Source: Allobosea sp. (lineage in GTDB: Bacteria; Pseudomonadota; Alphaproteobacteria; Rhizobiales; Beijerinckiaceae). Taken from it: a stretch of DNA of 64,000 nt. The position numbers and the translations under genes are program-made. Shown in pieces: positions 7,660-60,401 of the stretch (the stretch's first letter is position 1; the number at the start of each line of letters is the position of its first letter). Location of the stretch: assembly GCF_017308075.1 (NCBI RefSeq), contig NZ_JAFKFX010000032.1:1-64000 (forward strand). Reading direction: 5' to 3'. The notes under the pieces are model-generated. The model had not been told where the DNA came from and did not search any database. It saw only the letters and a list, made by a program, of their open reading frames with translations.

Positions 7660-9342
7660 GTGAACGGCTTGGTCGATCAGTTCCGGAGATTCGGTGCGGC
7701 GCGGCTGGCGGCGATGTTGGCAGTGACGCTGGCGCTGGTCGGCTTCTTCGCCTTCGTCATGCTGCGCATGTCGCAGCCGGCGATGGGGGTGCTCTTCGCC
7801 GACCTGTCGAGCCAGGATGTCAGCGCGATCCTGAAGGATCTCGACGCGCGCGGTGTCAAATACGAACTGCGCGGCGACGGGCAGACCATTCTCGCGCCGC
7901 GCGCCGATGTGCCGCGCCTGCGCCTCGATCTTGCCGGCAAGGGCATCCCGTCCGGCGGCGGTGTCGGCTATGAGATCTTCGACAAGGGCGACGCCTTTTC
8001 CTCGACCAGCTTCGTCCAGAACATCAACCATCTACGGGCGCTCGAGGGTGAGCTCTCGCGCACCATCCGCTCGATCAGCCGCGTCCAGGCGGCTCGCGTC
8101 CACCTCGTCATCCCCGAGCGCCGGCTGTTCGAGCGTGACCGGGAGCCGCCGCGCGCCTCGATCGCGCTCAAGCTCGCCGGTGATCTCGACGCCGCCCAGG
8201 TCCGGGCGGTGCGCCATCTCGTCGCCTCGGCGGTGGACGGGCTGAAGCCCGAGCGCGTCTCGATCGTCGACGAGCGCGGCCGGCTGTTGGCGGACGGCGC
8301 CCAGGGGGAGCAGGGCCTGGCCGGCGTCGGCCTCGACGAGCGCCAGGGCGCGATCGAGCGGCGGATCAAGTCGCAGGTCGAGGATATCGTCGCCAGCATC
8401 GTCGGCCCCGGCCGGGCGCGCGTCCAGGTCTCGGCTTCGCTCGACAGCAACCGCATCGAGAGCCGCTCCGAGACCTTCGACCCCGAGAGCAAGGTCATCC
8501 GCTCGAGCCAGAACCGCAACGAGACCTCGACCACCAACGAGGCGCGCGAGGGCGTCACCGTCGGCAACGAGCTGCCGGGTGCCCAGCAGCCCAACCAGGC
8601 CCAGCAGGGCGTGCAGAAGGACGCCACCAACAAGAACGAGGAGGTGGTCAACTACGAGATCTCGCGGACCACGCGCACCGAGGTGCTCGAGGGCGGGCGG
8701 GTGCGCAAGCTTTCGGTCGCGGTGCTGGTCGACGGCACCTATGCCCGCGGCCAGGGTGCCGAGGCGAGCTATCAGCCGCGCACGCAGGAGGAGCTGGAGC
8801 GGATCAGCCAGCTGGTGCGGACCGCGATCGGCTTCGACCGGCAGCGTGGCGACCAGGTCGAGGTCGTCAATCTGCGCTTCGCCGAAGGGCCGCAGGCGCA
8901 GGTCGATCTCGTCGAGCAGAGCCTGGTGCAGCAGCTTCTCTCTTTCTCGAAGGAGGATATGGTCCGCTTCGCCGAGATCGGCGTGATCTCGCTGCTGATC
9001 CTGATCGTGCTGATGGTGGTGGTGCGGCCGCTGCTCAAGCAGGTGCTGGCGCCCGAGCAGGAGTTCCGCGCGATCCCGAGCTTCATGCGCAATGGCGTCA
9101 TCGTCACCAGCGCGGCCCAGGGCACCGGCGACCCGGCAAGCCTGCCCGCCAATGGCTCCGAATCCGGAGAGTTCGGGGATGTGGATGTCGCCGCCCCGTC
9201 CGAGCGCATGCTCGCGATCGCGCAGGTGAAGGGCCAGCTCAAGGCACAGTCCGTCGAGAAGATCGGTGCGATGGTTGCTCAGAACCCGGCCGACTCGGTC
9301 GCGGTGCTGCGTGGCTGGATCCACGAAAAAGCGCCGGCGTGA
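7660..9342 (+). CDS. fliF: flagellar MS-ring protein FliF
   Basis: A 560-residue inner-membrane protein that forms the MS ring. An N-terminal transmembrane helix is at ~16-36 ('AAMLAVTLALVGFFAFVML'). YscJ/FliF ring-building domains follow ('PAMGVLFADLSSQDVSAIL', 'ARVHLVIPERRLFERDR'), and a C-terminal transmembrane segment is at ~442-460. The GTG at 7660 is preceded by a strong GGAAGGA ribosome binding site; an ATG at 7612 in the same frame lacks one. It is the first gene of the fliF-fliG-fliH-fliN-flbD operon, the same order as in Caulobacter. Confidence 0.95.
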   Translation: MNGLVDQFRRFGAARLAAMLAVTLALVGFFAFVMLRMSQPAMGVLFADLSSQDVSAILKDLDARGVKYELRGDGQTILAPRADVPRLRLDLAGKGIPSGGGVGYEIFDKGDAFSSTSFVQNINHLRALEGELSRTIRSISRVQAARVHLVIPERRLFERDREPPRASIALKLAGDLDAAQVRAVRHLVASAVDGLKPERVSIVDERGRLLADGAQGEQGLAGVGLDERQGAIERRIKSQVEDIVASIVGPGRARVQVSASLDSNRIESRSETFDPESKVIRSSQNRNETSTTNEAREGVTVGNELPGAQQPNQAQQGVQKDATNKNEEVVNYEISRTTRTEVLEGGRVRKLSVAVLVDGTYARGQGAEASYQPRTQEELERISQLVRTAIGFDRQRGDQVEVVNLRFAEGPQAQVDLVEQSLVQQLLSFSKEDMVRFAEIGVISLLILIVLMVVVRPLLKQVLAPEQEFRAIPSFMRNGVIVTSAAQGTGDPASLPANGSESGEFGDVDVAAPSERMLAIAQVKGQLKAQSVEKIGAMVAQNPADSVAVLRGWIHEKAPA

Positions 9343-39062: not shown

Positions 39063-41459
39063 TCACACCGGCGGCGGGTTCGCCTCGCGGATCCGCTGGC
39101 CGATCGCCCGGAAGAGCCCGTCGAAGGGGCGGAAGGTGAAGCGGATCGTCGAGCGGCCGGGCGGCACCTGCACGGCGCGGAAGATGACGTTGGCCCGCAG
39201 CAGCTCGGCCGGTTTGCCGTCGACCTCGACCTGCCACCAGGGCTGCCAGACATCGTTGAGGACGACGAAGCCGCCGGCGGGCGCGTCGGCCTCCAGCATA
39301 ACCTCGGTGGTGCCGTAGTTGCGGATGCTCACCGTGCCCGGCCCGGCCGGGCCGCCCGGCAGCCTCGGCGGCGTTCTGTCGAGCAGCACGGTGCGCCGCG
39401 GATCGAACCCCGCCGGCCATTGCCCATTCTTCAATATGGCGTCGAAATCGGCCTGCTGCGCATTCGTGACGAGCAGGACGCGCGGCAGTGCACGCGGATT
39501 CTCGTAGATGAAAGCGTCGGCGGTGCGGGCGATCTGGACGAGGTCGCCGGGCTTGAGCGCCTTGTCGATCTGCTCCACCGGCACGCCGGTGGCGATGAAG
39601 CGCAGGCCGAGCATGTCGGCGAGCAGCGAGCGATAGGACGGCATCAGCGCCGAGAAAGTGCGCTGGTCGGGCAAAGCGACATGGTCGCCGGCGCCGGTGG
39701 CGGCGCTGTAGAGTCCGAGCCGCAGCGGATTGTAGCCGAGTGTATTGTCGAGGCCGTGGACCAGGCTCGCATTGGGCCAGTGGAAGTCGATGCCGGCGAG
39801 CTCGATGCGGTCGCGGCGATCCGGGCCGGCGGTGCGCGCAGTCTCGCGCTTGAGCAGGGCAATGGTCTCGTTGGCGCTGTCGGCGCGCAGCACCTCGTAG
39901 CGCGAGGACGGCAGGGCGGTCGACTCGCTCGGCCCGTTATTGACCGAGAGATCGATGGTCATGGTCATCGCGAGGATCAGCGTGGCGGCCATGCCGGCGC
40001 CCTGCAGAGCGAGGCCGCGCGCTGCGACGAGCGCTCCGGCGACCAGCAGCAGGCAGAGCAGGGCGGTGATCAGCGGCAAGGCGGCGACGCCGAGCCGGCC
40101 GGTCGTCCAGGCCAGCCAGATGGCGAGGCCGAAGGCGGCGCCGAGCAAGGCGGCTTCCAGAGCGATCTGCCAGCGCCGGGGACGCGGCGCGGTGTCGGTC
40201 AGGACGAGATGGGTGAAGTAGCCGCCGAGAATGGCGAAGAGTGCGCCGAGGATGAAGAGCGCGTCGGCCGGCCGGCGATAGAGGTCGAGGCCGGGCAGTG
40301 CCGAAAAGAGGATCTGGAAGCCGGGCGTATAGCGCCCGAGCGCGTAGATGAGCACGACGATGGCCGCGACGCTCAGCGCCACGATCTCCCGTCGCCAGAG
40401 GCCGCCGCGGACGACGCCGACGCCGATGATCATCAGCAGCGGCAGCAGGCCGAGATAGAGCTCGCTCATATTGCGGGCGAGATAGAGATCGACCGCACCG
40501 AAGCGGGCTTCCCAGGCCGGGCTCGGCGGCCCCCAGAAATTCTCCAGCGGGCCGGCGGCGCCATAGAGATTGGCGACCAGCCCGGTGAGCAGCGAGGCCG
40601 GATGAAGCGAGCCCTTGCCGGCACCGGCGAAGTCGATCGCCGGCCGGTTCGATTCCTGGGCCAGGAAGGCGGTGAGCAGGATCGGAATGGCGGCGACCAG
40701 CACGGCGCCGAGCACGCCGAGGCACAGCGGCATCAGGCTGCCTTTGAGGGCGCGCAGCGGCTGCTTCGCCATGGCGATCGCGGCGATGACGAGCCCGGCG
40801 AGGACGTAGACGCCGATCAGCGCGACCTGGTCGCGCCCGAGCACCATGAAGCCGGCCACGATGCCGGCGAAGAAGCCATAGCCCCAGGAGCCGCGCTCCA
40901 GAGCGCGCGAGAGCAGCAGCAATGTGATGGCGAAATAGGCAAGGCTCAGCACCTGCCCGACATGCTGGATGCGCCAGGCGGCCGAAGCCCCGAAGGCGAA
41001 GGCGAGGGCGCAGACCACGGCGCCGCCGGGGTGCCAGTCGCGGTCGCGGAAGAGCAGGACGAGGCAGAGCGCGCCGACCAGGAGCGAGCCGAGCAGCGCC
41101 CCGTCGCTCCAGCGGAAATCCGGCGTCGGATTGAGCAGGGCGATCAGCGCGAAGGGCGGCGAGAAGATCAGGGATTGCGGATCTGCGACCTGCGGCGAGC
41201 CGGCGAAGACGAAGGGCGTCCAGAACGGCGACAGCCCCTTGTGCAGAGCGCTGGCGAGGAACTGGAGCTGCGGGTGGAAATGCGCCTTGGCATCCCAGGG
41301 CACGGTCATGACCCCGGACAGCCAGGGCCAGGACAGAGCGAGCCAGGCGGCGCCGACGATCAGGAGGACCTTGGCGACAGGCCAGGGCGCGCGCAACGGC
41401 GCTGGATCGGACCGCTCTTGCTCGGACAGCTTCTGCTCGGACCGCTTCTGTTCGGACAT
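39063..41459 (-). CDS. YfhO-like large membrane protein
   Basis: A 798-residue protein with about 12 transmembrane helices in the first ~520 residues and a soluble C-terminal domain ('GFVVLNDVWQPWWQVEVDGK', 'PGRSTIRFTFRPFDGLFRAI'). This is the YfhO/GT-C-like architecture that in Gram-positives is tied to glycosylation of lipoteichoic acid. The N-terminus carries three copies of a 5-residue repeat 'SEQKR/SEQKL/SEQER', from a 15-bp DNA repeat at ~41408-41452. The ATG at 41459 follows GGAAG. Confidence 0.75.
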   Translation of the reverse strand: MSEQKRSEQKLSEQERSDPAPLRAPWPVAKVLLIVGAAWLALSWPWLSGVMTVPWDAKAHFHPQLQFLASALHKGLSPFWTPFVFAGSPQVADPQSLIFSPPFALIALLNPTPDFRWSDGALLGSLLVGALCLVLLFRDRDWHPGGAVVCALAFAFGASAAWRIQHVGQVLSLAYFAITLLLLSRALERGSWGYGFFAGIVAGFMVLGRDQVALIGVYVLAGLVIAAIAMAKQPLRALKGSLMPLCLGVLGAVLVAAIPILLTAFLAQESNRPAIDFAGAGKGSLHPASLLTGLVANLYGAAGPLENFWGPPSPAWEARFGAVDLYLARNMSELYLGLLPLLMIIGVGVVRGGLWRREIVALSVAAIVVLIYALGRYTPGFQILFSALPGLDLYRRPADALFILGALFAILGGYFTHLVLTDTAPRPRRWQIALEAALLGAAFGLAIWLAWTTGRLGVAALPLITALLCLLLVAGALVAARGLALQGAGMAATLILAMTMTIDLSVNNGPSESTALPSSRYEVLRADSANETIALLKRETARTAGPDRRDRIELAGIDFHWPNASLVHGLDNTLGYNPLRLGLYSAATGAGDHVALPDQRTFSALMPSYRSLLADMLGLRFIATGVPVEQIDKALKPGDLVQIARTADAFIYENPRALPRVLLVTNAQQADFDAILKNGQWPAGFDPRRTVLLDRTPPRLPGGPAGPGTVSIRNYGTTEVMLEADAPAGGFVVLNDVWQPWWQVEVDGKPAELLRANVIFRAVQVPPGRSTIRFTFRPFDGLFRAIGQRIREANPPPV

Positions 41460-41526
41460 GGCGGCTTCCTGCCCCAGGCCCCGTGCCGGATCAATGCCCG
41501 GCACGGGCTCGCTGCCTGGCGCGAGG

Positions 41527-42654
41527 TCAATCCTTCGGGGCTGCTCGCGCCATCAGCGCGTCCATATCGATGAAATGGCCGGCCCGGTCGCGCTTCGAGG
41601 CGAGATAGCGGACATTGTGGATATTCGGGCGGCCGAGGACGCGCTGGGTCGCGGCGACTTCGAGCCCGGCGGCCTTGATCGCACCGATCTTGAGCGGATT
41701 GTTGGTCAGCGCCGTGACGCTGCTGACGCCGAGCTGCTTCAGCATTTCCGCGGCGAAGTCGAAATGGCGCTGATCGAGATCGAAGCCGAGCACCTCGTCG
41801 GCGTCGTAGGTGTCCCAACCCTGGCTCTGAAGCTTGTAGGCCCGCATCTTGTTGGAGATGCCGTTGCCGCGGCCTTCCTGGTCGAGATAGAGCAGGATGC
41901 CGCCCTCGTTCTGGGCCATCCACTCGACCGTCTCGCGCAACTGGTCGCCGCAATCGCATTTCAGCGAGCCGAACAGGTCGCCGGTCAGGCAGGCGGAGTG
42001 CAGGCGCACCGGCACGGCGGCTGAGAGGTCCGGCTTGCCGACGATGATCGCGACCTGATCGCGCAGGCCCTCGCCGCCGCGGAAGACCACGAATTCGGTA
42101 TCGGGAGCGCCTTCCAGCGGCACCGGCGCGCGGCCGACGATAGCGAGCGTCGCGACCTGCGCCGTGCGGTAGCCGTTGATCGCTGCGATGCTGACCTCGA
42201 CCAGCGGTTCGCCGGCGATCTGCGCCGCGGTGACCGGCACCAGTATGATGGCGGGCAGCACGAGCGAAAGCCCGGCGAGCTCGAGCGCCGCGGCGTCGAG
42301 CGCATTGGCGGGACCGACCGGCGCATCGACGCGCGCATCGATCCTGAGGGCGAGGGTCTCGACGCGGGCGACGTCGATCGTGGGCATGGCGAGGACACCG
42401 GTCTCGCTGCGGCCCTTGGCGCCGAGGCGGCGCAGGCGCGCGGCGCTCAGCACCAGCCTGGCGTTACCTTCGGCAAGCGTGTCGAGCCGGCCGGCGATCT
42501 CGGCATCGGCCAGTTCGGCCGAGAGCGCCAGCGCCAGGTTCTCGCCATCGCGCAGCAGGACGGGACGGCCGGCCCGAAACTCGGCAAGCGCCCGGTCGAC
42601 GGTTATGATCTCGGTTTCGCCGGGACGGCCGAAAAGCGTACGCGACTTAGGCAT
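41527..42654 (-). CDS. ribA: GTP cyclohydrolase II with degenerate RibB-like N-terminus
   Basis: A 375-residue protein. The C-terminal half (~175-370) is GTP cyclohydrolase II: the Zn-binding cysteines in 'HSACLTGDLFGSLKCDCGDQL' and the GTP-binding 'DQEGRGNGISNKMRAYKLQ' to 'LTNNPLKIGAIKAAGLEV'. It opens the imidazole ring of GTP in riboflavin synthesis. The first ~165 residues recall DHBP synthase (RibB) but lack its acidic catalytic motif, so that activity is probably lost. The ATG at 42654 is chosen from family length. Confidence 0.88.
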   Translation of the reverse strand: MPKSRTLFGRPGETEIITVDRALAEFRAGRPVLLRDGENLALALSAELADAEIAGRLDTLAEGNARLVLSAARLRRLGAKGRSETGVLAMPTIDVARVETLALRIDARVDAPVGPANALDAAALELAGLSLVLPAIILVPVTAAQIAGEPLVEVSIAAINGYRTAQVATLAIVGRAPVPLEGAPDTEFVVFRGGEGLRDQVAIIVGKPDLSAAVPVRLHSACLTGDLFGSLKCDCGDQLRETVEWMAQNEGGILLYLDQEGRGNGISNKMRAYKLQSQGWDTYDADEVLGFDLDQRHFDFAAEMLKQLGVSSVTALTNNPLKIGAIKAAGLEVAATQRVLGRPNIHNVRYLASKRDRAGHFIDMDALMARAAPKD

Positions 42655-42923
42655 GGCTGCGTCCGTCAGATTGCGCCGGCTGGCGGCGGAGGAGATGGTC
42701 TTATACGTTCGTTTCGGCAGGACGGGTGCTGTCCGGCGCAATACGGCGTAGCTACAACTTGTCCGGGCTTGCGTGGTTCCCAAAAGCGTGATGTCGGGCG
42801 GATTTCCGGCGAATGTCGACCGCCGGCCGAGCGAGTGCAAGATGGCCTATTAAAAGCGCGACATTGAACGCGAGATGAATGCTGGTGCCGACCCTGACGG
42901 GGCAATAGGGGGGTGGGAGCAAG

Positions 42924-43508
42924 ATGTGGCAGCCACGGGATCCCGCCATCGCGGCGAAAGCTCGGCCCGAGGTCTACAGCACAACGGCGCGACGGTTCCA
43001 TTGGCTGACCGTCGCGGCGGTCTTCGTGATGATCCCGCTCGGCCTCGGCATGACCTATCGCGGCAATACGCTCGATATCTGGGACGGGCTGACCAACGGG
43101 CTCTATTCCGCGCATAAGCTTCTGGGTTTCCTCGTGCTTTGGCTCACGGCCGGACGTTTGGCCTATCGGCTCCTGCATGGCGCACCACCTGACGAGCCGA
43201 CGCTGGCATGGTGGCAGAAGGCTGGCTCGCACCTCGTTCACTGGGCACTTTACGGGCTGCTTCTCGTCGTGCCCTTGCTGGGCTGGATCGGCGTTTCGCT
43301 GTTTCCGGCGTTGACGATCTTCGACCTGTTCAACCTGCCGGCCCTGGCCGGGCCCGACGAGGCGGCGGCCAAGCGCGTGCTCGCGCTGCATGGCTGGCTG
43401 GCAATTCTGCTGGCACTGACGATCGCCGGCCATATCGGCGCGGCACTCTACCACTATTTCATCCGCCGGGACGGGGTGTTGCGGCGCATGCTGCCAGGGC
43501 TGAGATAG
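42924..43508 (+). CDS. cytochrome b561 family protein
   Basis: A 194-residue membrane protein with four predicted helices and histidines placed as b-haem ligands ('RRFHWLTVAAVFVM', 'SAHKLLGFLVLW', 'LVHWALYGLLLV', 'LALHGWLAILLA'). It would transfer electrons at the inner membrane, for example from ubiquinol or to superoxide. It converges with the NUDIX gene, 3 bp apart. Confidence 0.88.
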   Translation: MWQPRDPAIAAKARPEVYSTTARRFHWLTVAAVFVMIPLGLGMTYRGNTLDIWDGLTNGLYSAHKLLGFLVLWLTAGRLAYRLLHGAPPDEPTLAWWQKAGSHLVHWALYGLLLVVPLLGWIGVSLFPALTIFDLFNLPALAGPDEAAAKRVLALHGWLAILLALTIAGHIGAALYHYFIRRDGVLRRMLPGLR

Positions 43509-53261: not shown

Positions 53262-54245
53262 CTACTTCTTTGCCTCCGGCTTGGCCGGCGGGTTCGGGTC
53301 CTTCGAGAAGCTGCGGAAGACCATGTCGGGCGAGGAGGTGTTGTGGCGTGAATGGGTGGCGCGGCCCATCCAGATATCGGTTGCCTTGCTGCCGGCGAAG
53401 GGCATCAGCGCTTCCTCGCGCCAGCCCTTGGCGCCGGGCTCGCGGATGGCGATGCGGGCGACGTCGTTGTTGAACTCGGTGACATACATCGAGCGCAGCG
53501 CGGCGAAGGCCTTGCCGCCGGTCACCGGCCTGTCGAGCACGGCGTCGAGCACCATGCGGTCCTGGTCGACGCTGTCGAGCTTGAGCGTGCCGGAGGAGCC
53601 GTCCTTGAAGGCGAGGTTGAAGGAGAGCGTCTTCGGGTCGAAGGCGATCTCCTTGATGTTGACGACAGGACGCGCGCCGTCCTGCTCGATCGGCCCGAAC
53701 AGGAAGGAGGAGCCGTAGGCGGCGGCGGAGAGCTGCGGCGGCGGCAGCGGCCGGACGCGCCAGTAGCCGTCCTGCGGGTAGACCACCAGCACCTCATAGG
53801 AGCCGGTCTTGCCGAGCTTCCAGAGCTGGACGAGGTGCAGGCCCTTCTCGACACGGTCTCCGACCCGGAAGGTCGTGTCCGCCGGACGCCAGAAGCTCTC
53901 GAAAGTGTAGCCGACCAGCCAGTATTCGATGCTCTCATAGAAGGTGATGCGCTGTGGCGGCACGGGCGCCTTGAAGACCGGATCGCCGGTCATGTCGCAA
54001 TCGGTCCAGTCGGCGTCCCAGTTGTCGCGCTGGAGGCCGACGATATAGGCCGGATGGGCGGCCTCGATGCGGAAACGCCGGACCTCGGGCGAGATCGCCT
54101 TGATGGTGACGTTGTCCTTCTCGGCGCAGAGCACCGGCTCCGACTCGTTCTTCACCTCGACGGCGACGTCGCTGGCGGCATGGCCGGTAGCGGCGGAGAT
54201 CAGCAAAGCGAGCGAAATGGCGAACGGGCGGGCGAGGCTGAGCAT
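53262..54245 (-). CDS. exported hypothetical protein
   Basis: A 327-residue protein with a signal peptide ('ARPFAISLALLISAATGHAA', residues ~5-25). The mature part is mostly beta-type sequence with features such as 'HPAYIVGLQRDNWDADWTDC', 'PQRITFYESIEYWLVGYTFE', 'WKLGKTGSYEVLVVYPQDGYW' and a C-terminal 'HSRHNTSSPDMVFRSF'. I do not recognise the family. The ATG at 54245 has AAGGA at good spacing. It precedes no clear operon partner. Confidence 0.72.
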   Translation of the reverse strand: MLSLARPFAISLALLISAATGHAASDVAVEVKNESEPVLCAEKDNVTIKAISPEVRRFRIEAAHPAYIVGLQRDNWDADWTDCDMTGDPVFKAPVPPQRITFYESIEYWLVGYTFESFWRPADTTFRVGDRVEKGLHLVQLWKLGKTGSYEVLVVYPQDGYWRVRPLPPPQLSAAAYGSSFLFGPIEQDGARPVVNIKEIAFDPKTLSFNLAFKDGSSGTLKLDSVDQDRMVLDAVLDRPVTGGKAFAALRSMYVTEFNNDVARIAIREPGAKGWREEALMPFAGSKATDIWMGRATHSRHNTSSPDMVFRSFSKDPNPPAKPEAKK

Positions 54246-54409
54246 GTCCATCCTTCGAAAGCGGAGCGGGCCGCCATGCTGAGCACGGCGAGATGAACGC
54301 AGGCTGGCTGGCGCCGGCCCGCATCCCAAGGCTTCATAAAGAAGGCCGTGCGCCGGTGAAAGCGCGCGGTGGCACGGGTTCATCGGTGAGGCCGCTCGGA
54401 TCGCCGCCT

Positions 54410-55168
54410 TCAGCGCGTCAGCATCGCGTAGACGTCGCCGGAATTCGCCGCATGCGGCAGCCCGCGCAGATAGCTGCCCATCGTCTCGGCGTCGACCGCC
54501 TTCGGGAAGACCAGAATCTGGCTTTCGCCCAGCGCGACATTGAAGCGATAGGGGCCGAGCGCCGCGACCAAAGCGAGGCAGGCCTCGGCGACGTCGCGCT
54601 GGATGGTGGTGAACTCGAAGGAGAGTGCCGGAACCGGCCGCGTCAAGCCGGCGAGGACATGAGCCTCGAAGCCCTCGACGTCGATCTTGATGAAGGCCGG
54701 CATACCGTGCTGGCCGATCAGCATGTCGAGCGTGGTGCAGGGCACCTCGAACTCGCGATCCCAGATCTGCTCGCGCCAGCCATCGGCGTCGACGGCGGCG
54801 CCGACGAAATCGGTCGAGACGGTCGAGACCGTCGGGTTGGCGCTGTTGACCTTCAGCGTCACCATGCCCGGCCGGTCGCCGCAGGCCGCTTCGACCAGGG
54901 TGACGTCGGGATCGCGGCCATGGATCAGGCGGATGGCGCGGGCCGGTCCGGGCTGCGGTTCGAGCGCAACGGCGCGTGCGCCGAGCCGGCGGAAGCTGGA
55001 GACGCGGTCGCCGACATGCGAGCCGATGTCGAAGGCAAGCTCGCCAGCCATCAGGAAGCGCGCATAGAGCGCGTCCATGGCGGCATTGCGGGCGCTATCG
55101 CCATGGTAGACGCGCAGCGAGCGCGACAGGCTCTTCGCCGTGCCCCTGGGGTAGGCGACCGGCTTCAT
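54410..55168 (-). CDS. FkbM-family methyltransferase
   Basis: A 252-residue SAM-dependent methyltransferase. The SAM motif is 'LAFDIGSHVGDRVSSFRRLG', with 'AVALEPQPGP', 'VSTVSTDFV' and 'FIKIDVEGFEAHVLAGL' typical of FkbM. The start overlaps the opgH-like stop by four bases, so it probably methylates a glycan or lipid connected with the glucan synthase product. This link is inferred from coupling. Confidence 0.85.
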   Translation of the reverse strand: MKPVAYPRGTAKSLSRSLRVYHGDSARNAAMDALYARFLMAGELAFDIGSHVGDRVSSFRRLGARAVALEPQPGPARAIRLIHGRDPDVTLVEAACGDRPGMVTLKVNSANPTVSTVSTDFVGAAVDADGWREQIWDREFEVPCTTLDMLIGQHGMPAFIKIDVEGFEAHVLAGLTRPVPALSFEFTTIQRDVAEACLALVAALGPYRFNVALGESQILVFPKAVDAETMGSYLRGLPHAANSGDVYAMLTR

Positions 55169-57006
55169 TTCGGCTCACCCGCCTGGATGGCGACGAGCTC
55201 GGGCGGCGGATCGAAATCCTCGGGGATGCCGCAAAGGCCGCGGCGCGCGAACCAGCGCCCGAGTGCCGGCGAGGCGGTCAGCATGGCGAAGGGGATCGCG
55301 AGGACATAGCCGGCCGTCAGCGGCAGCGACCAGATCAGCACGGTCGGCGAGAGCAGAGCGAGCGTGCCGAAAATGTAGAGGCCGAAGAGCAGATGCGGCC
55401 ACAGGCCTTCGAAGGCGGTGGCGAGCGAGAGCGCATGGGCGTCGCGGGCCTGGCCGTTCCAGCCGATCCTCGCCTTGCCGACGGCGAGGCCGACCATGAA
55501 GATCGTGGTGCGGAAGGTCGAGACCGCGCCTTGCAGGAAGGCGAAGACGACCTCGATCAGCGAGGAGACGACGAAGCGGCCGGTGCCGCCATAGCGCTTC
55601 GTGCCGCCCTTGCTGAGCAGGATATCGGCAAAGCCGGCGAGCTTCGGCGAGAGATACATCGCGAAGAACAGGACATAGAGGAAGGCGGCGAAGCCGGCGG
55701 GATAATTGAGAATGCCGCGATCCTGCCAGACCTTGAGTGGCAAGAGCGCGATCATCAACGTCCAGGCCGGCAGGCCGATGAACATCAGGATCGCCCAGGC
55801 GAGCTGGAAGCGGCTCATGATCTTGAGCCCGGGGATGTCCATCAGCTTGAGATATTGCAGGTTGCCGAGGCACCAGCGCAGGTCGCGCCTTGCGAATTCG
55901 AGCATGGTCGGCGGGTTCTCCTCCCAGCTGCCCATCTCAACCGGGAGCACGCGGACCTCGTAGCCGGCGCGGCGCATCAGCGTCGCCTCGACCTGGTCAT
56001 GACTCATGACAGGACCGCCGAGTGGCGGGCCGCCGGGGAGCACCGGCAGATGGCATGCGTCGCGGAAGGGCGCGATCCGGACCATGGCGTTGTGGCCCCA
56101 GAACGGGCCACAATCGCCGATCCACCAGGCCGAGCCCATGGTGTAGGGGCGCATGCCGTGGCGCATGCCGAACTGGAAGATGCGCGCGAAGGCGGATTTG
56201 CTGGGCATGCCGACGACGAGGCTCTGCAGGATGCCGAGCTTCGGCCAGGTCTGCATCATCCGGGTCAAGGCGAGGATGGCCGGACCCGACATCACGGAAT
56301 CGGCGTCGAGCGGCAGCATCAGCTCGTAGCGGTCGCCCCAGCGCTCGCAGAAGTCGCGGACATTGCCGGCCTTGTAGCCGGTGTTGTCGGTCCGGCGGCG
56401 ATAGGTCAGGCGCGAGGTGTCGCCGATCCTGGCGGCGAAGGCGGCGGCGAGTTTCTCCTCGGCTGCGGCGACCGCCGGATCGTCGGTGTCGGAGAGCACG
56501 AAATAGTCGAACCAGGCGCCTTGGCCGGTGGAGTCGAGGCTCTGCTTGACGATGGCGAGCCGGCGGAAGGCACGGGCGGGGTCCTCGTTGCGCAGGGTCA
56601 TCAGGATCGCTGTGCGGATGGCGAGCGGGGTCGCCTCGTCGCCGGCCGCCGCGAAGGGCGCGACGCGTTCGAGCCCGTCCTCGACGCCATGCAGCAGCCA
56701 GAGACCGATCGCGGCGTTCCAGAAGCCGAGCACCGTCCAGGGCGCACCGAACAGGAAGGCGATGAAGATCACGATGTCGGCGAGGCTCCAGCCGCCGGCC
56801 GAGAGCACATGGACAAGGCCGTAGAGCAGGGCGGCGAGCGTCGCGAGGTTGAGGCCTGCGACCAGCAGCCGGCGCAGGCGCAGGGTCGCGATGCGCTGCA
56901 GGCCGGCCGGCGTGAAGCCAGTGCCGTGGCTGGCATCATTGCGCTCTTGCGCCGTCGCCTGGAACGTGTTCGGACCGGGGCGCTGGTTCATGGCGGTCTC
57001 TGTCAT
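55165..57006 (-). CDS. mdoH: glucan glucosyltransferase H (OpgH/MdoH)
   Basis: A 613-residue inner-membrane GT2 enzyme that polymerises glucose from UDP-glucose for osmoregulated periplasmic glucans. Two helices precede the catalytic domain, which has 'FVLSDTDDP', 'NTGYKAGNVRDFCERWGDRY', 'LPLDADSVMSG', 'MSHDQVEATLMRRAGYEVRV' and 'RRDLRWCLGNLQYLKL'. Multiple C-terminal helices follow. The usual partner mdoG is not adjacent. A second in-frame ATG is at 56991. It is divergent from the 57054 gene, 47 bp away. Confidence 0.88.
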   Translation of the reverse strand: MTETAMNQRPGPNTFQATAQERNDASHGTGFTPAGLQRIATLRLRRLLVAGLNLATLAALLYGLVHVLSAGGWSLADIVIFIAFLFGAPWTVLGFWNAAIGLWLLHGVEDGLERVAPFAAAGDEATPLAIRTAILMTLRNEDPARAFRRLAIVKQSLDSTGQGAWFDYFVLSDTDDPAVAAAEEKLAAAFAARIGDTSRLTYRRRTDNTGYKAGNVRDFCERWGDRYELMLPLDADSVMSGPAILALTRMMQTWPKLGILQSLVVGMPSKSAFARIFQFGMRHGMRPYTMGSAWWIGDCGPFWGHNAMVRIAPFRDACHLPVLPGGPPLGGPVMSHDQVEATLMRRAGYEVRVLPVEMGSWEENPPTMLEFARRDLRWCLGNLQYLKLMDIPGLKIMSRFQLAWAILMFIGLPAWTLMIALLPLKVWQDRGILNYPAGFAAFLYVLFFAMYLSPKLAGFADILLSKGGTKRYGGTGRFVVSSLIEVVFAFLQGAVSTFRTTIFMVGLAVGKARIGWNGQARDAHALSLATAFEGLWPHLLFGLYIFGTLALLSPTVLIWSLPLTAGYVLAIPFAMLTASPALGRWFARRGLCGIPEDFDPPPELVAIQAGEPK

Positions 57007-57053: not shown

Positions 57054-58052
57054 GTGATTGAACCGGCAATGGCCGCCGAGGCAAGCGGCAATGTGGCTGC
57101 AACCGCGCTCTGGTATGTCGGACCGCGTGAATGCGTCCTGAACGAGGTCGAGCTGGCGAAGGCCGGGCCGCAGGACTGCGTTGTCAGGACATGCTGGAGC
57201 GGTGTCAGCCGCGGCACCGAGCGGCTGGTCTTCGAAGGGCTCGTGCCCGTTTCCGAACATGAGCGCATGCGGGCGCCGTTCCAGGAGGGGGCATTCCCGT
57301 TCCCGGTGAAGTACGGCTACTGCGCCGTCGGGATCGTGGAGGCGGGGCCGGCGCACCTGCTCGGCGAAACGGTGTTCTGCCTCTACCCGCATCAGGATCG
57401 CTTCGTGGTGCCGGCCAGCCGGCTCGCGCTCGTGCCGAAGGCGGTACCGGCGCGGCGGGCCATGCTCGCCGCCAATATGGAAACCGCGCTCAACGCGCAT
57501 TGGGATGCCGGTTCCGGTCCGGCCGATCGGATCGTCGTGGTCGGCGGCGGCGTGCTCGGCCTGCTGACCGCCTTCATTGCCGCGCAGCTACCGGGCGCAG
57601 AGGTGACATTGGTCGATCTCGACCCCGCCCGCGCTGCATTGGCAGAGACGCTCGGCTTCGGCTTCGCCCAGCCACCGGACTGCCCCGGAGAGGCCGATCT
57701 CGTCTTCCATACCAGCGCCAGCGCGGCCGGACTTGCGACCGCGATCGGCGCCGCCGGTTTCGAGGCGCGGATCGTCGAATTGAGCTGGTATGGCGAAGGT
57801 GCGGTCGCGGCCCCGTTGGGCGGGGCGTTCCATGCGAAGCGACTGCAACTGGTCTCGTCGCAGGTCGGGCAGGTTTCACCGTCGCGCCGGCCGCGCTTCG
57901 ATTATGCGCGCCGGACGCAGGCAGCGCTCGCGCTGCTGGCCGACGAGCGGCTCGATGCGCTAATCTCGGAGGAGATCGGATTCAGAGAGGCGCCGGCGCG
58001 GCTGCCGGCACTGTTCGCGGGCAAGGGCATCACGGCGGTGCTGCGCTATTGA
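57054..58052 (+). CDS. MDR-superfamily dehydrogenase, BchC-like
   Basis: A 332-residue protein starting with GTG. The N-terminal catalytic domain contains 'CWSGVSRGTERLVFEGLVPVSE' and 'PFPVKYGYCAVGIVEAGP', which resemble the bacteriochlorophyllide dehydrogenase BchC-like group. The Rossmann part has 'IVVVGGGVLGLLTAFIAAQLPGAEVTLVDLD'. The usual GHE zinc-site motif of alcohol dehydrogenases is absent, so it may be zinc-independent. It is first in a tight four-gene set with a PTPS homologue, a glycosyltransferase and a methyltransferase. Confidence 0.82.
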   Translation: MIEPAMAAEASGNVAATALWYVGPRECVLNEVELAKAGPQDCVVRTCWSGVSRGTERLVFEGLVPVSEHERMRAPFQEGAFPFPVKYGYCAVGIVEAGPAHLLGETVFCLYPHQDRFVVPASRLALVPKAVPARRAMLAANMETALNAHWDAGSGPADRIVVVGGGVLGLLTAFIAAQLPGAEVTLVDLDPARAALAETLGFGFAQPPDCPGEADLVFHTSASAAGLATAIGAAGFEARIVELSWYGEGAVAAPLGGAFHAKRLQLVSSQVGQVSPSRRPRFDYARRTQAALALLADERLDALISEEIGFREAPARLPALFAGKGITAVLRY

Positions 58053-58114
58053 TCTTGAAGGGTAGGCAGAAACGCGCGACGGGCTTAAGCAGACTGGGCT
58101 GAAGGAGGCTGCCC

Positions 58115-58516
58115 ATGTTTTCCGTCGAAGTCCGCGACCGCATCATGATCGGCCATTCGCTGCCCGATCCCTTCTTCGGCCCGGCGCAGGCCATGCATGG
58201 CGCGACCTTCGTCGTCGATGTCGCCTTCTTCCGCGAGAACCTGACCCGGCAGAACGTGGTGGTCGATATCGGCGCGGCGCTGACGGTGCTGAACGAGACG
58301 CTGAAGCCGCTTAACTACAAGAACCTCGACACGCTGCCGCAGTTCCAGGGCGTGCTCACCACCACCGAATTCCTCTGCAAGTACATTTTCGACGCGATCG
58401 CGGCGGCGGCGCGCTCCGGCAAGCTCGGCGCGGATGCCGCGGATCTCGCGAAGATCCGCGTCACCCTGCACGAGACCGACCTCGCCCGCGCCAGCTATGA
58501 GGGCGCCCTCGCGTGA
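58115..58516 (+). CDS. 6-pyruvoyl-tetrahydropterin synthase/QueD-family protein with altered active site
   Basis: A 133-residue T-fold protein matching the PTPS/QueD family along its length: 'RIMIGHSLPDPFFGPAQAMHGATFVVDV', 'VVVDIGAALTVLNETLKPLNYKNLDTL', 'TTTEFLCKYIFDAI', 'VTLHETDLARASYEG'. Aligned by eye to E. coli QueD, two zinc ligands remain (His14, His28), but the third is Ala30, the catalytic Cys is Ala24, and the Asp-His pair is Asn67-Tyr68. Canonical chemistry therefore seems unlikely. It has a strong AAGGAGG ribosome binding site. Its stop overlaps the next start (GTGA). Confidence 0.82.
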   Translation: MFSVEVRDRIMIGHSLPDPFFGPAQAMHGATFVVDVAFFRENLTRQNVVVDIGAALTVLNETLKPLNYKNLDTLPQFQGVLTTTEFLCKYIFDAIAAAARSGKLGADAADLAKIRVTLHETDLARASYEGALA

Positions 58517-59565
58517 GCGAGATCGCCTTCGCCATTCCCGGCGACCTTTCGCTGCCGACCGGCGGCTACGCCTATGACCGGCGGCTGCTGGCGGAATGGG
58601 CGCAGATGGGTGTCGCGTCGCGCCATCTCGCGCTGCCCGGCGGGTTTCCGGCGCCGAGCGAGGCGGAGCTCGCCGAGACCGGCAGGGCGATCCTGTCGCA
58701 GCCCTATGACAGCGTGCTGCTGATCGACGGGCTCGCCTATGGCGCCTTCCCGGAAGGCATCGCCGCCGGGCTCGCCGGACGCGTCGTCGCATTGGTGCAT
58801 CACCCGCTCGGGCTCGAGGCTGGGCTTTCCCCGGAGCGGGCTGCGGCCCTGCTGGCCCGGGAGACGGCGGCGCTCCGCCATGCCAGCGCCGTGATCGCCA
58901 CCAGCCAGAACACCAAGCGCCTGCTGGTCGCGGATTTCTTCGTGCCGGAAGCGCGGATCACCGTGGCGGAGCCCGGCGTCGATCCGGCACCGCGCGCCTC
59001 CGGCTCGCCGACCGGGGCGCCGCTGCAACTGCTGGCCGTGGGCTCGCTGGTGCCGCGAAAGGGCTATGACGTGCTGGTCGCGGCGCTTGCCGGGCTCGCG
59101 GATCGAAACTGGCGCCTGACCATCATCGGCGCGGCCGATCGGGCTCCAGAGACTGCGGCGGCACTGGCCGCGCAGATCGCCGGTGCCGGCCTCGGCGATC
59201 GCGTCCATCTTGCCGGGGCGGTCGACCAGAAGACGCTGGCGGCGGCCTATGGCGGTGCCGATCTCTTCGTCATGCCCTCGCTGTTCGAGGGCTATGGCAT
59301 GGTGCTGACCGAAGCCCTTGCCCGCGGCCTCCCGATCCTGTGCACGACCGGCGGCGCGGCGGCCGAGACGGCGCCGGACGCGGCGGCGCTCAAGGTTCCG
59401 CCCGGGGATGCAGCGGCGCTGCGGGCCGGGCTTCTCCGCCTGCTCGACGATGCCGGGGAGCGCAAAAGACGCTCCGATGCGGCCTGGCATGCAGCGGATG
59501 CATTGCCGCGCTGGCGAGACACCGCGACGATCGTCGCGCAAACTTGTGCGATGGTGTCGCCATGA
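58513..59565 (+). CDS. glycosyltransferase family 4
   Basis: A 350-residue GT-B enzyme starting with GTG. The N-half contains 'IPGDLSLPTGGYAYDRRLL' and the C-half the donor-binding 'LAVGSLVPRKGYDVLVAAL', 'VHLAGAVDQKTLAAAYGGAD' and 'VMPSLFEGYGMVLTEALARGLPI' with the EX7E pair. It overlaps both neighbours by four bases, pointing to a single translated unit. The acceptor is unknown; the context suggests a small heterocyclic molecule rather than a polysaccharide. Confidence 0.87.
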   Translation: MSEIAFAIPGDLSLPTGGYAYDRRLLAEWAQMGVASRHLALPGGFPAPSEAELAETGRAILSQPYDSVLLIDGLAYGAFPEGIAAGLAGRVVALVHHPLGLEAGLSPERAAALLARETAALRHASAVIATSQNTKRLLVADFFVPEARITVAEPGVDPAPRASGSPTGAPLQLLAVGSLVPRKGYDVLVAALAGLADRNWRLTIIGAADRAPETAAALAAQIAGAGLGDRVHLAGAVDQKTLAAAYGGADLFVMPSLFEGYGMVLTEALARGLPILCTTGGAAAETAPDAAALKVPPGDAAALRAGLLRLLDDAGERKRRSDAAWHAADALPRWRDTATIVAQTCAMVSP

Positions 59566-60401
59566 GTGGATTCTCCCCGGATTGGCTCGCTCTGCGCGAG
59601 CCGGCCGACCATGCCGCCCGCAATCCGCAGGTGCTGGCTGCGGTCGGTGCCGCCTTCGCCAGCCGACAGTCGCTGACGGTGATCGACCTCGGCTGCGGCG
59701 CCGGCTCCAATCTGCGCGGTACCTATTCGGTGCTGCCGGCGCGGCAATACTGGACGCTGGTCGATTTCGATCCGCGCCTGCTGGCGGTGGCGCGCGAACG
59801 CCTGACCGCCTGGGCCGATGAAGCGGAGGCGCTCGGTGAGGAGCTGGTGCTGCGCAAGGGCGAGAAATCGCTGACCGTCGATTTCCGCAAGGCCGATCTC
59901 AACACCGATCTCGAATGGGTGCTGGGCTGGCAACCCGACCTCGTCACCGCCGCCGCGCTGTTCGACCTGACCTCGGCGCGCTGGCTCGAGCGCTTCGTCG
60001 CCTCGCTGGTGAGCCAGCGGCTGCCGCTCTACACGGCGCTGACCTATGACGGGCGCGAGAGCTGGGAACCGGCCCATCCGGCTGATGCCCGGATGCTCGC
60101 CGCCTTCAACCATCACCAGCACAGCGACAAGGGCTTCGGCCCGGCCGCCGGACCGGAGGCGACGGAGACGCTGGCGCAGGCCTTCCGCAAGTCCGGCTGC
60201 GCCGTCACCGTGGGCGAGAGCCCCTGGATGCTCGACGCCGGCAGCGCGGCGCTGACACGCGAGCTCACGGCCGGCATTGCCGCGGCGGTGGCCGAGACCG
60301 GCCATGTCGATGCGGAAACGATCGCGAGCTGGCTCGCCGTCCGCGCCAAGGCGAGCTCAGGTCGGATCGGTCATCAGGACCTCTGGGCTAGGCCGGTCTG
60401 A
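59562..60401 (+). CDS. class I SAM-dependent methyltransferase
   Basis: A 279-residue protein. Motif I 'VIDLGCGAGSNLRG' (~40-53) and the acidic 'LVDFDPRLLAVA' form the SAM site; later sequence includes 'DLVTAAALFDLTSARWLERFV' and 'LTYDGRESWEPAHPADARM'. The ATG overlaps the glycosyltransferase stop (ATGA). It is the last gene of the 57054-60401 set. Confidence 0.85.
   Translation: MSGFSPDWLALREPADHAARNPQVLAAVGAAFASRQSLTVIDLGCGAGSNLRGTYSVLPARQYWTLVDFDPRLLAVARERLTAWADEAEALGEELVLRKGEKSLTVDFRKADLNTDLEWVLGWQPDLVTAAALFDLTSARWLERFVASLVSQRLPLYTALTYDGRESWEPAHPADARMLAAFNHHQHSDKGFGPAAGPEATETLAQAFRKSGCAVTVGESPWMLDAGSAALTRELTAGIAAAVAETGHVDAETIASWLAVRAKASSGRIGHQDLWARPV

Follow-up and report, generated by a model that had tools for sequence, protein, structure and literature searches.

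The window analysed here is a 64,000-nucleotide stretch on contig C61 of the 5.55 Mb genome of an Allobosea sp. (NZ_JAFKFX010000032.1, positions 1 to 64,000), whose closest relatives at the locus are Bosea, and it carries at 57054-60401 a set of four genes, one of which encodes a homologue of 6-pyruvoyl-tetrahydropterin synthase (PTPS) and of the queuosine enzyme QueD. An initial annotation, made from the sequence alone, had read these four open reading frames (ORFs) as a coupled set for a new small-molecule pathway; all of them were found where it had placed them, with a gap of 62 bases between the dehydrogenase and PTPS genes and, as it had described, four-base overlaps joining the last three:

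57054..58052, + strand: BchC-like zinc-free medium-chain dehydrogenase; nicotinamide adenine dinucleotide (NAD) motif kept, both catalytic zinc-ligand regions lost
58115..58516, + strand: SCO6650-type PTPS/T-fold protein; without the catalytic Cys, one zinc His and the Asp-His pair, two Glu kept
58513..59565, + strand: GT4 retaining glycosyltransferase; PF00534, E-x7-E motif, overlaps the PTPS gene by 4 bases
59562..60401, + strand: class I S-adenosylmethionine (SAM) methyltransferase; no curated family name over cut-off, overlaps the GT4 gene by 4 bases

The PTPS homologue belongs to the T-fold/PTPS superfamily, scoring 73.6 bits against PF01242 (cut-off 22.4), and reaches 31 bits against the QueD model TIGR03367, whose cut-off is 89.25. 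An alignment with E. coli QueD was built from 123 rows, i.e. 121 loci, the window and SCO6650, in which the loci and the window comprise 119 distinct PTPS sequences with three identical pairs (two of these, L013/L169 and L071/L168, are each probably one genome drawn twice). It verified the losses that had been read by eye, namely those of the catalytic Cys (E. coli Cys27, here Ala24), of the third zinc His (Ala30) and of the Asp-His pair (Asn67-Tyr68). Ala was determined at position 24 in 120 rows (Glu in 3) and at position 30 in 120 rows (His in 3), both residues in every bacterial row (120/120), and Tyr68 replaces the His of the pair in 109 of the 123; the Asp is Asn67 in just 59. Therefore, of the residues expected to be conserved as a clade, Ala24, Ala30 and Tyr68 held, but Asn67 is not a clade marker. 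No homologue retaining the QueD Cys/Asp/His occurred in the alignment. The zinc ligands H14 and H28 are present in all 123 rows, as are Glu85 and Glu120, which align with the Glu that hold the pterin ring in the PTPS family. Hence the homologue resembles QueD and PTPS in its T-fold, two of the three zinc His and the two Glu positions, and differs in belonging to a subfamily without the Cys, the third zinc His and the Asp-His pair that does not follow QueE; the lost residues rule out the normal QueD reaction, in agreement with the earlier view that the T-fold protein has moved to another function. In three haloarchaeal loci (L089, L108 and L109, PTPS at 9001 in each), the zinc His triad is kept and Glu stands at the Cys position, with the same four-gene core around it.

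The best PDB match of the PTPS homologue, over the whole protein, is 3d7j, i.e. Streptomyces coelicolor SCO6650, listed as an 'uncharacterized protein' (E 1e-37, ~55% identity), which has the same Ala24, Ala30, Asn67 and Tyr68 and the kept Glu. The paper on this crystal structure reportedly describes a zinc-free protein with the catalytic triad missing and no PTPS activity. Among 398 Pseudomonadota genomes, 62 matched the window PTPS at E 1e-6 or better, 27 of them (26 and the window genome) with at least 53% identity and the other 35 with no more than 33%; this gap sets the SCO6650-type subfamily sharply apart, and the window protein carries its combination of Ala24/Ala30 with H14, H28, E85 and E120. 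The novelty claimed for the set was thus modified: the altered PTPS as such has a precedent in SCO6650, a member of the subfamily with a solved structure, while the dedicated and conserved gene set around the PTPS homologue is the finding.

The dehydrogenase fell below every Pfam cut-off, and TIGR01202 (BchC) was its top NCBIfam match, though below cut-off (59 bits versus 291.25), bearing out the earlier label 'BchC-like' and indicating by sequence a relative of BchC, not BchC. Across 109 aligned rows (the window and 108 of the 121 loci), all keep the NAD glycines G164, G166 and G169, and 108 keep S52 and E56 of the zinc-Cys region as well as G88 and Y89 of a YGY site, which is GHE in zinc enzymes. 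With both catalytic zinc-ligand regions lost, its database name probably errs in calling it 'zinc-binding'. The glycosyltransferase scores 101.6 bits against PF00534 (cut-off 26.4) and has the E-x7-E motif in 111 of 116 loci, and its closest solved structures include D-inositol 3-phosphate glycosyltransferase. The methyltransferase lies under every Pfam cut-off with its SAM motif present; an AlphaFold model from 33 aligned sequences displayed a class I fold (mean predicted local distance difference test score, pLDDT, 96.5), and a fold search yielded many small-molecule methyltransferases, sugar O-methyltransferases included among the matches listed, and no hint of the substrate.

To describe the neighbourhood, the 10.5 kb around the PTPS gene were compared in the 27 genomes holding the subfamily. 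The dehydrogenase was found in all 27, GT4 in 26, the methyltransferase in 25 and a RibD-type reductase in 22; MdoH followed in 13, a CDP-alcohol phosphatidyltransferase in 12, GTP cyclohydrolase II (RibA) and an LPG_synthase_TM flippase-like protein in 11 each, FkbM in 9, cytochrome b561 in 7, creatininase in 6 and relatives of an annotated 'sulfatase', itself without a Pfam match at E 0.001, in 5. By chance, only ~0.3 of the 27 genomes would be expected to have RibD_C there and ~0.3 GTP cyclohydrolase II (66 genome-wide matches each), so the neighbourhood is far beyond chance. The set is therefore conserved in the sampled genomes, and the guess of a fifth partner, either a reductase or a second ribA, was well placed. 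Its spread, which the initial annotation had proposed to look for across Hyphomicrobiales, was found there but is not confined there, as a gammaproteobacterium, Actinomycetota and Haloarchaea have it too.

The 15 plasmid records examined, from 26 matched, span Streptomyces, Arthrobacter, Microbacterium, Thiodictyon, Methylosinus, Rhizobiaceae, Rhodobacterales and Haloarchaea, and hold the dehydrogenase in 13, GT4 and the methyltransferase in 12 each, RibD and the phosphatidyltransferase in 7 each and RibA in 4. The core occurs in Streptomyces, Microbacterium, Thiodictyon, Methylosinus, Rhizobiaceae, Haloarcula, Natronorubrum and Halomicrococcus, in many cases with creatininase, RibA, RibD or the phosphatidyltransferase, and a close relative of SCO6650 on a Streptomyces plasmid lies in the same four-gene order together with RibA, creatininase and phosphatidyltransferase. 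Among genome contigs, the best 80 of 237 relatives (mostly Hyphomicrobiales, i.e. Bosea and Hyphomicrobium relatives, some on short contigs) showed the dehydrogenase in 70, GT4 in 79, the methyltransferase in 76, MdoH in 65, FkbM in 59, b561 in 53, RibA in 43 and RibD in 20. The window itself holds the following members of recurring families:

55165..57000, - strand: MdoH-like membrane glucosyltransferase, divergent from the dehydrogenase
54410..55168, - strand: FkbM-type methyltransferase, possible accessory part; near PTPS in 59/80 genome-contig loci and 9/27 genomes
41527..42654, - strand: GTP cyclohydrolase II (RibA); Zn Cys triad and Tyr105-equivalent
42924..43508, + strand: cytochrome b561-type membrane protein; adjoins RibA, homologue near PTPS in 53/80 genome-contig loci
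39063..41504, - strand: YfhO/PMT-like multi-pass membrane protein, possible accessory part; near PTPS in 36/80 genome-contig loci, usually after RibA

The YfhO/PMT-like protein had two Pfam matches, both below cut-off, and the b561 relative in L086, 32% identical to the window protein, was tested with Pfam PF01292. Beyond the FkbM and MdoH genes, an ORF at 53262-54383 (- strand) is kept in 59 of 81 loci, the window included; it had no Pfam match at E 0.01 and by eye resembles a secreted protein. A phage search gave no match.

Automatic annotation names the subfamily 6-carboxytetrahydropterin synthase in 20 of the 26 matched plasmid records, and in the window genome the homologue is the sole PTPS, with QueC present. 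A QueE model, which among 14 control genomes gave a match in 8 (including E. coli and B. subtilis), gave none in the window Bosea genome. Ten of the 27 genomes were compared, and a second PTPS match was observed in 4 of the 4 with QueE (G191, G217, G050 and G174) and in none of the 6 that have the SCO6650-type subfamily without a QueE match; it is strong in G191 and G217, a divergent double one beside QueC in G050, and just a partial 28.4-bit match away from QueC in G174. Since the second PTPS goes with QueE, the subfamily does not follow the pathway implied by its database name. The window PTPS thus showed neither the catalytic Cys, the three zinc His and the Asp-His pair nor co-occurrence with QueE, and a QueD role was rejected on the lost residues and on the second PTPS occurring, among the 10 genomes, only with QueE. 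The Bosea QueC (G000:C61:89212-89940 = L170:5212-5940) adjoins a gene at L170:4659-5309 that matches the queuosine precursor transporter family at 38.5 bits (cut-off 50.95); such a QueC with a sub-threshold transporter match, in a genome without a canonical QueD or QueE match, suggests salvage of a late precursor.

Several partners of the core come from families of the riboflavin branch, namely RibA, an ArfB-type deformylase and an ArfC/RibD reductase. The window RibA, which the set as initially described does not include, has the Zn Cys triad, Arg128 and Tyr105 of GTP cyclohydrolase II and exceeds its equivalog cut-off (PRK08815, 499.5 bits versus 464). It lies ~14 kb from the dehydrogenase, with a similar spacing in the relative G382, while in 27 of 37 Bosea-like loci RibA follows downstream of the methyltransferase within one stretch, beyond the b561 gene; among the other 10, without RibA there, one is a short contig and nine are closely related to the window. 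The RibA-b561-YfhO block (39063-43508) is inverted relative to most Bosea-like loci, and its displacement is a lineage-specific rearrangement. Because the two further PF00925 proteins of the Bosea genome look by eye like a degenerate RibB-fused copy and a URC1-type protein, the window RibA is probably also the riboflavin enzyme. The URC1-like GTP cyclohydrolase family protein (G000:C12:347992-348447, L004) is followed by a possible URC4 gene, which suggests a pyrimidine catabolic pathway.

For the reductase, the two cluster proteins tested had 2,5-diamino-6-ribosylaminopyrimidinone phosphate reductases (ArfC-type) as their nearest PDB structures. Unlike riboflavin enzymes, the one scanned with Pfam has no deaminase domain, the cluster reductases remain under the equivalog cut-offs, and other RibD_C genes lie elsewhere in most of the 27 genomes. 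The window genome has two RibD_C matches, and a search of it for a cluster-type reductase elsewhere found none, matching only a 427-aa frame on C4 (29-37% identity) that is probably a bifunctional RibD. Stronger evidence for a dedicated early route is given by four genomes outside the window's class, probably Gammaproteobacteria (G308, G050, G395 and G314), in which the cluster RibA and RibD are extra paralogues: another RibA, a longer RibD and a RibBA-like protein lie elsewhere in the genome. We also considered that creatininase might track a RibA with a formyl product, i.e. one with Met at the E. coli Tyr105 position, and rejected this, as four creatininase loci carry a Tyr RibA. Over 59 rows, that position is Tyr in 57 and Met just in the Streptomyces locus L085, with L035 not covered; the L085 protein is a relative of SCO6655, the S. 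coelicolor RibA of the cluster, which reportedly makes the formyl product and has Met at the Tyr position.

Divergent from the dehydrogenase is a slot that changes its occupant. As the nearest sought family upstream in divergent orientation, it holds a phosphatidyltransferase in 12 of the 27 genomes, MdoH in 9, a sulfatase-like protein in 1, a co-oriented RibA in 1 and none in 4; four genomes have both MdoH and the phosphatidyltransferase within 10.5 kb, and MdoH is then outside the slot. On a tree of 54 chosen dehydrogenase-plus-PTPS rows, the phosphatidyltransferase loci were archaeal, actinobacterial, from Thiodictyon, from genomes outside the window's class and from some Rhizobiaceae, and the MdoH loci alphaproteobacterial, one of them (L103) from Rhizobiaceae, so at least two slot changes are needed. 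The 19 phosphatidyltransferases compared all retain the CDP-alcohol motif, and the window MdoH exceeds its equivalog cut-off (920.8 bits versus 884). MdoG is the usual partner of MdoH. Among the 14 genomes tested for it, MdoG is present in 6 of the 9 with MdoH in the slot, the window genome having 4 copies, and is absent in the other 3 (G297, G012 and G047, two of which share a genus); because these lack an MdoG match, synthesis of the usual periplasmic glucans is an unlikely role for MdoH there. The window genome has four CDP-alcohol family matches; a search for the cluster-type phosphatidyltransferase elsewhere in it matched three of the four, at 38.9 bits or less, and it was not found.

The phosphatidyltransferase and the GT4 related to D-inositol 3-phosphate glycosyltransferase recall headgroup pathways of the phosphatidylinositol mannoside type, as does an inositol-monophosphatase-family gene near the set in L106 and L164, but the scanned cluster phosphatidyltransferases match no named equivalog over cut-off, and the analogy is one of gene layout only. 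Of the neighbours, the phosphatidyltransferase, MdoH, the flippase-like protein and b561 point to a membrane-linked product over a simply soluble pterin. The initial annotation had proposed a modified, glycosylated and methylated pterin-like or other heterocyclic product; the dedicated set with its riboflavin-branch partners agrees with this, while the membrane genes point beyond a simply soluble pterin.

On this evidence, we consider it an even call that the four genes form the centre of a dedicated, non-queuosine biosynthetic pathway, spread horizontally and leading from GTP to a glycosylated, methylated and membrane-transferred product. In the order of steps that we infer, GTP would be opened by RibA to enter the riboflavin branch as 2,5-diamino-6-ribosylaminopyrimidinone phosphate, with a creatininase-family deformylase removing formate where RibA yields the formyl form, and the RibD-type reductase would convert the ribosyl to the ribityl form. 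The metal-free T-fold protein could then bind the 2-amino-4-oxopyrimidine ring and catalyse a reaction other than that of PTPS, perhaps closing a ring or cleaving a side chain. Next, the zinc-free dehydrogenase would oxidise a hydroxyl, GT4 would attach a sugar and the methyltransferase would add a methyl group. Finally, a membrane enzyme, i.e. the CDP-alcohol phosphatidyltransferase in many lineages and MdoH in Bosea and its kin, would pass the product to a lipid or an exported glycan. In this Bosea, the early steps may be borrowed from riboflavin synthesis by way of the window RibA and the genomic RibD. The product is probably a glycosylated, methylated pyrimidine or pteridine that is handed to the membrane. 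A more specific version is unlikely, namely that it is a membrane-anchored glycosylated, methylated pteridine or diaminopyrimidine of a new headgroup or redox cofactor class shared by Bacteria and Archaea, in which the ribityl pyrimidine would be the alcohol joined to lipid by the CDP-alcohol phosphatidyltransferase and b561 the membrane redox partner.

A number of observations weigh against such a dedicated route from GTP to the membrane. Early partners can be missing beside the set, RibA in 16 of the 27 genomes and the RibD-type reductase in 5, the window included, and the Bosea RibA looks like the genome's sole true GTP cyclohydrolase II, so that its linkage may reflect riboflavin synthesis instead. 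The creatininase does not follow the Met variant of RibA, and that of Streptomyces is by score closer to MftE than to ArfB and below both cut-offs. The phosphatidyltransferase is absent beside the set in 15 of the 27, with the Bosea CDP-alcohol genes matching the cluster type so weakly. Nor is the core unbroken: two Rhodobacterales records either lack GT4 or have it 4 kb away, two of the sampled genomes (L157 and L158) lack the methyltransferase, and on two Streptomyces megaplasmids (L107 and L111, at 9001) the PTPS gene stands without the other three nearby.

It is possible, if rather unlikely, that the product is a soluble glycosylated pterin, comparable to the pterin glycosides of cyanobacteria, and that the membrane genes are unrelated neighbours. 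PTPS, GT4 and the methyltransferase do form the constant core around which the membrane partners vary, and the Glu residues aligned with the pterin-contact Glu are kept; however, the phosphatidyltransferase recurs in lineages as far apart as Thiodictyon, actinobacteria, Rhizobiaceae and Haloarchaea, MdoH takes the same divergent position elsewhere, and the flippase-like protein accompanies the set in 11 of 27 genomes. We find it quite unlikely that the set tailors a membrane lipid or glycan unrelated to pterins, with the T-fold protein repurposed and RibA nearby through the chance arrangement of riboflavin genes. This would fit the genes for membrane glycosyltransferases, the phosphatidyltransferase, the flippase-like protein and FkbM that surround the core, as well as a Bosea RibA that is probably the housekeeping copy, but the frequency of the RibD-type reductase compared with its chance expectation, the additional copies of RibA that four of the sampled genomes from other classes carry and the creatininase in Streptomyces and Haloarcula records argue against it. 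It is extremely improbable that the database name is right and the PTPS homologue acts as QueD in queuosine synthesis beside incidental neighbours, for its name and its being the sole PTPS in a genome with QueC are outweighed by the lost residues, the low TIGR03367 score, the distribution of the second PTPS and of QueE, and a Bosea QueC lying beside a precursor-transporter match.

Judged by titles and abstract openings, none of the papers listed in the open-access literature seemed to deal with the cluster, a scope that makes this absence weak; the name SCO6655 stands once in PMC2853524. The altered PTPS is of a known subfamily, and a pathway combining riboflavin-branch and lipid-headgroup enzymes is undescribed in the open-access literature searched. 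The core and its recurring partners occur in Pseudomonadota (27 of 398 sampled genomes), Actinomycetota and Haloarchaea with no product in that literature, and their best-known member, SCO6650, has a solved structure without a function. The residue and QueE evidence suggests that genes of the subfamily named 6-carboxytetrahydropterin synthase are misnamed, and if this reading is right, riboflavin-branch enzymes acting together with a lipid phosphatidyltransferase would point to a new class of membrane molecule.

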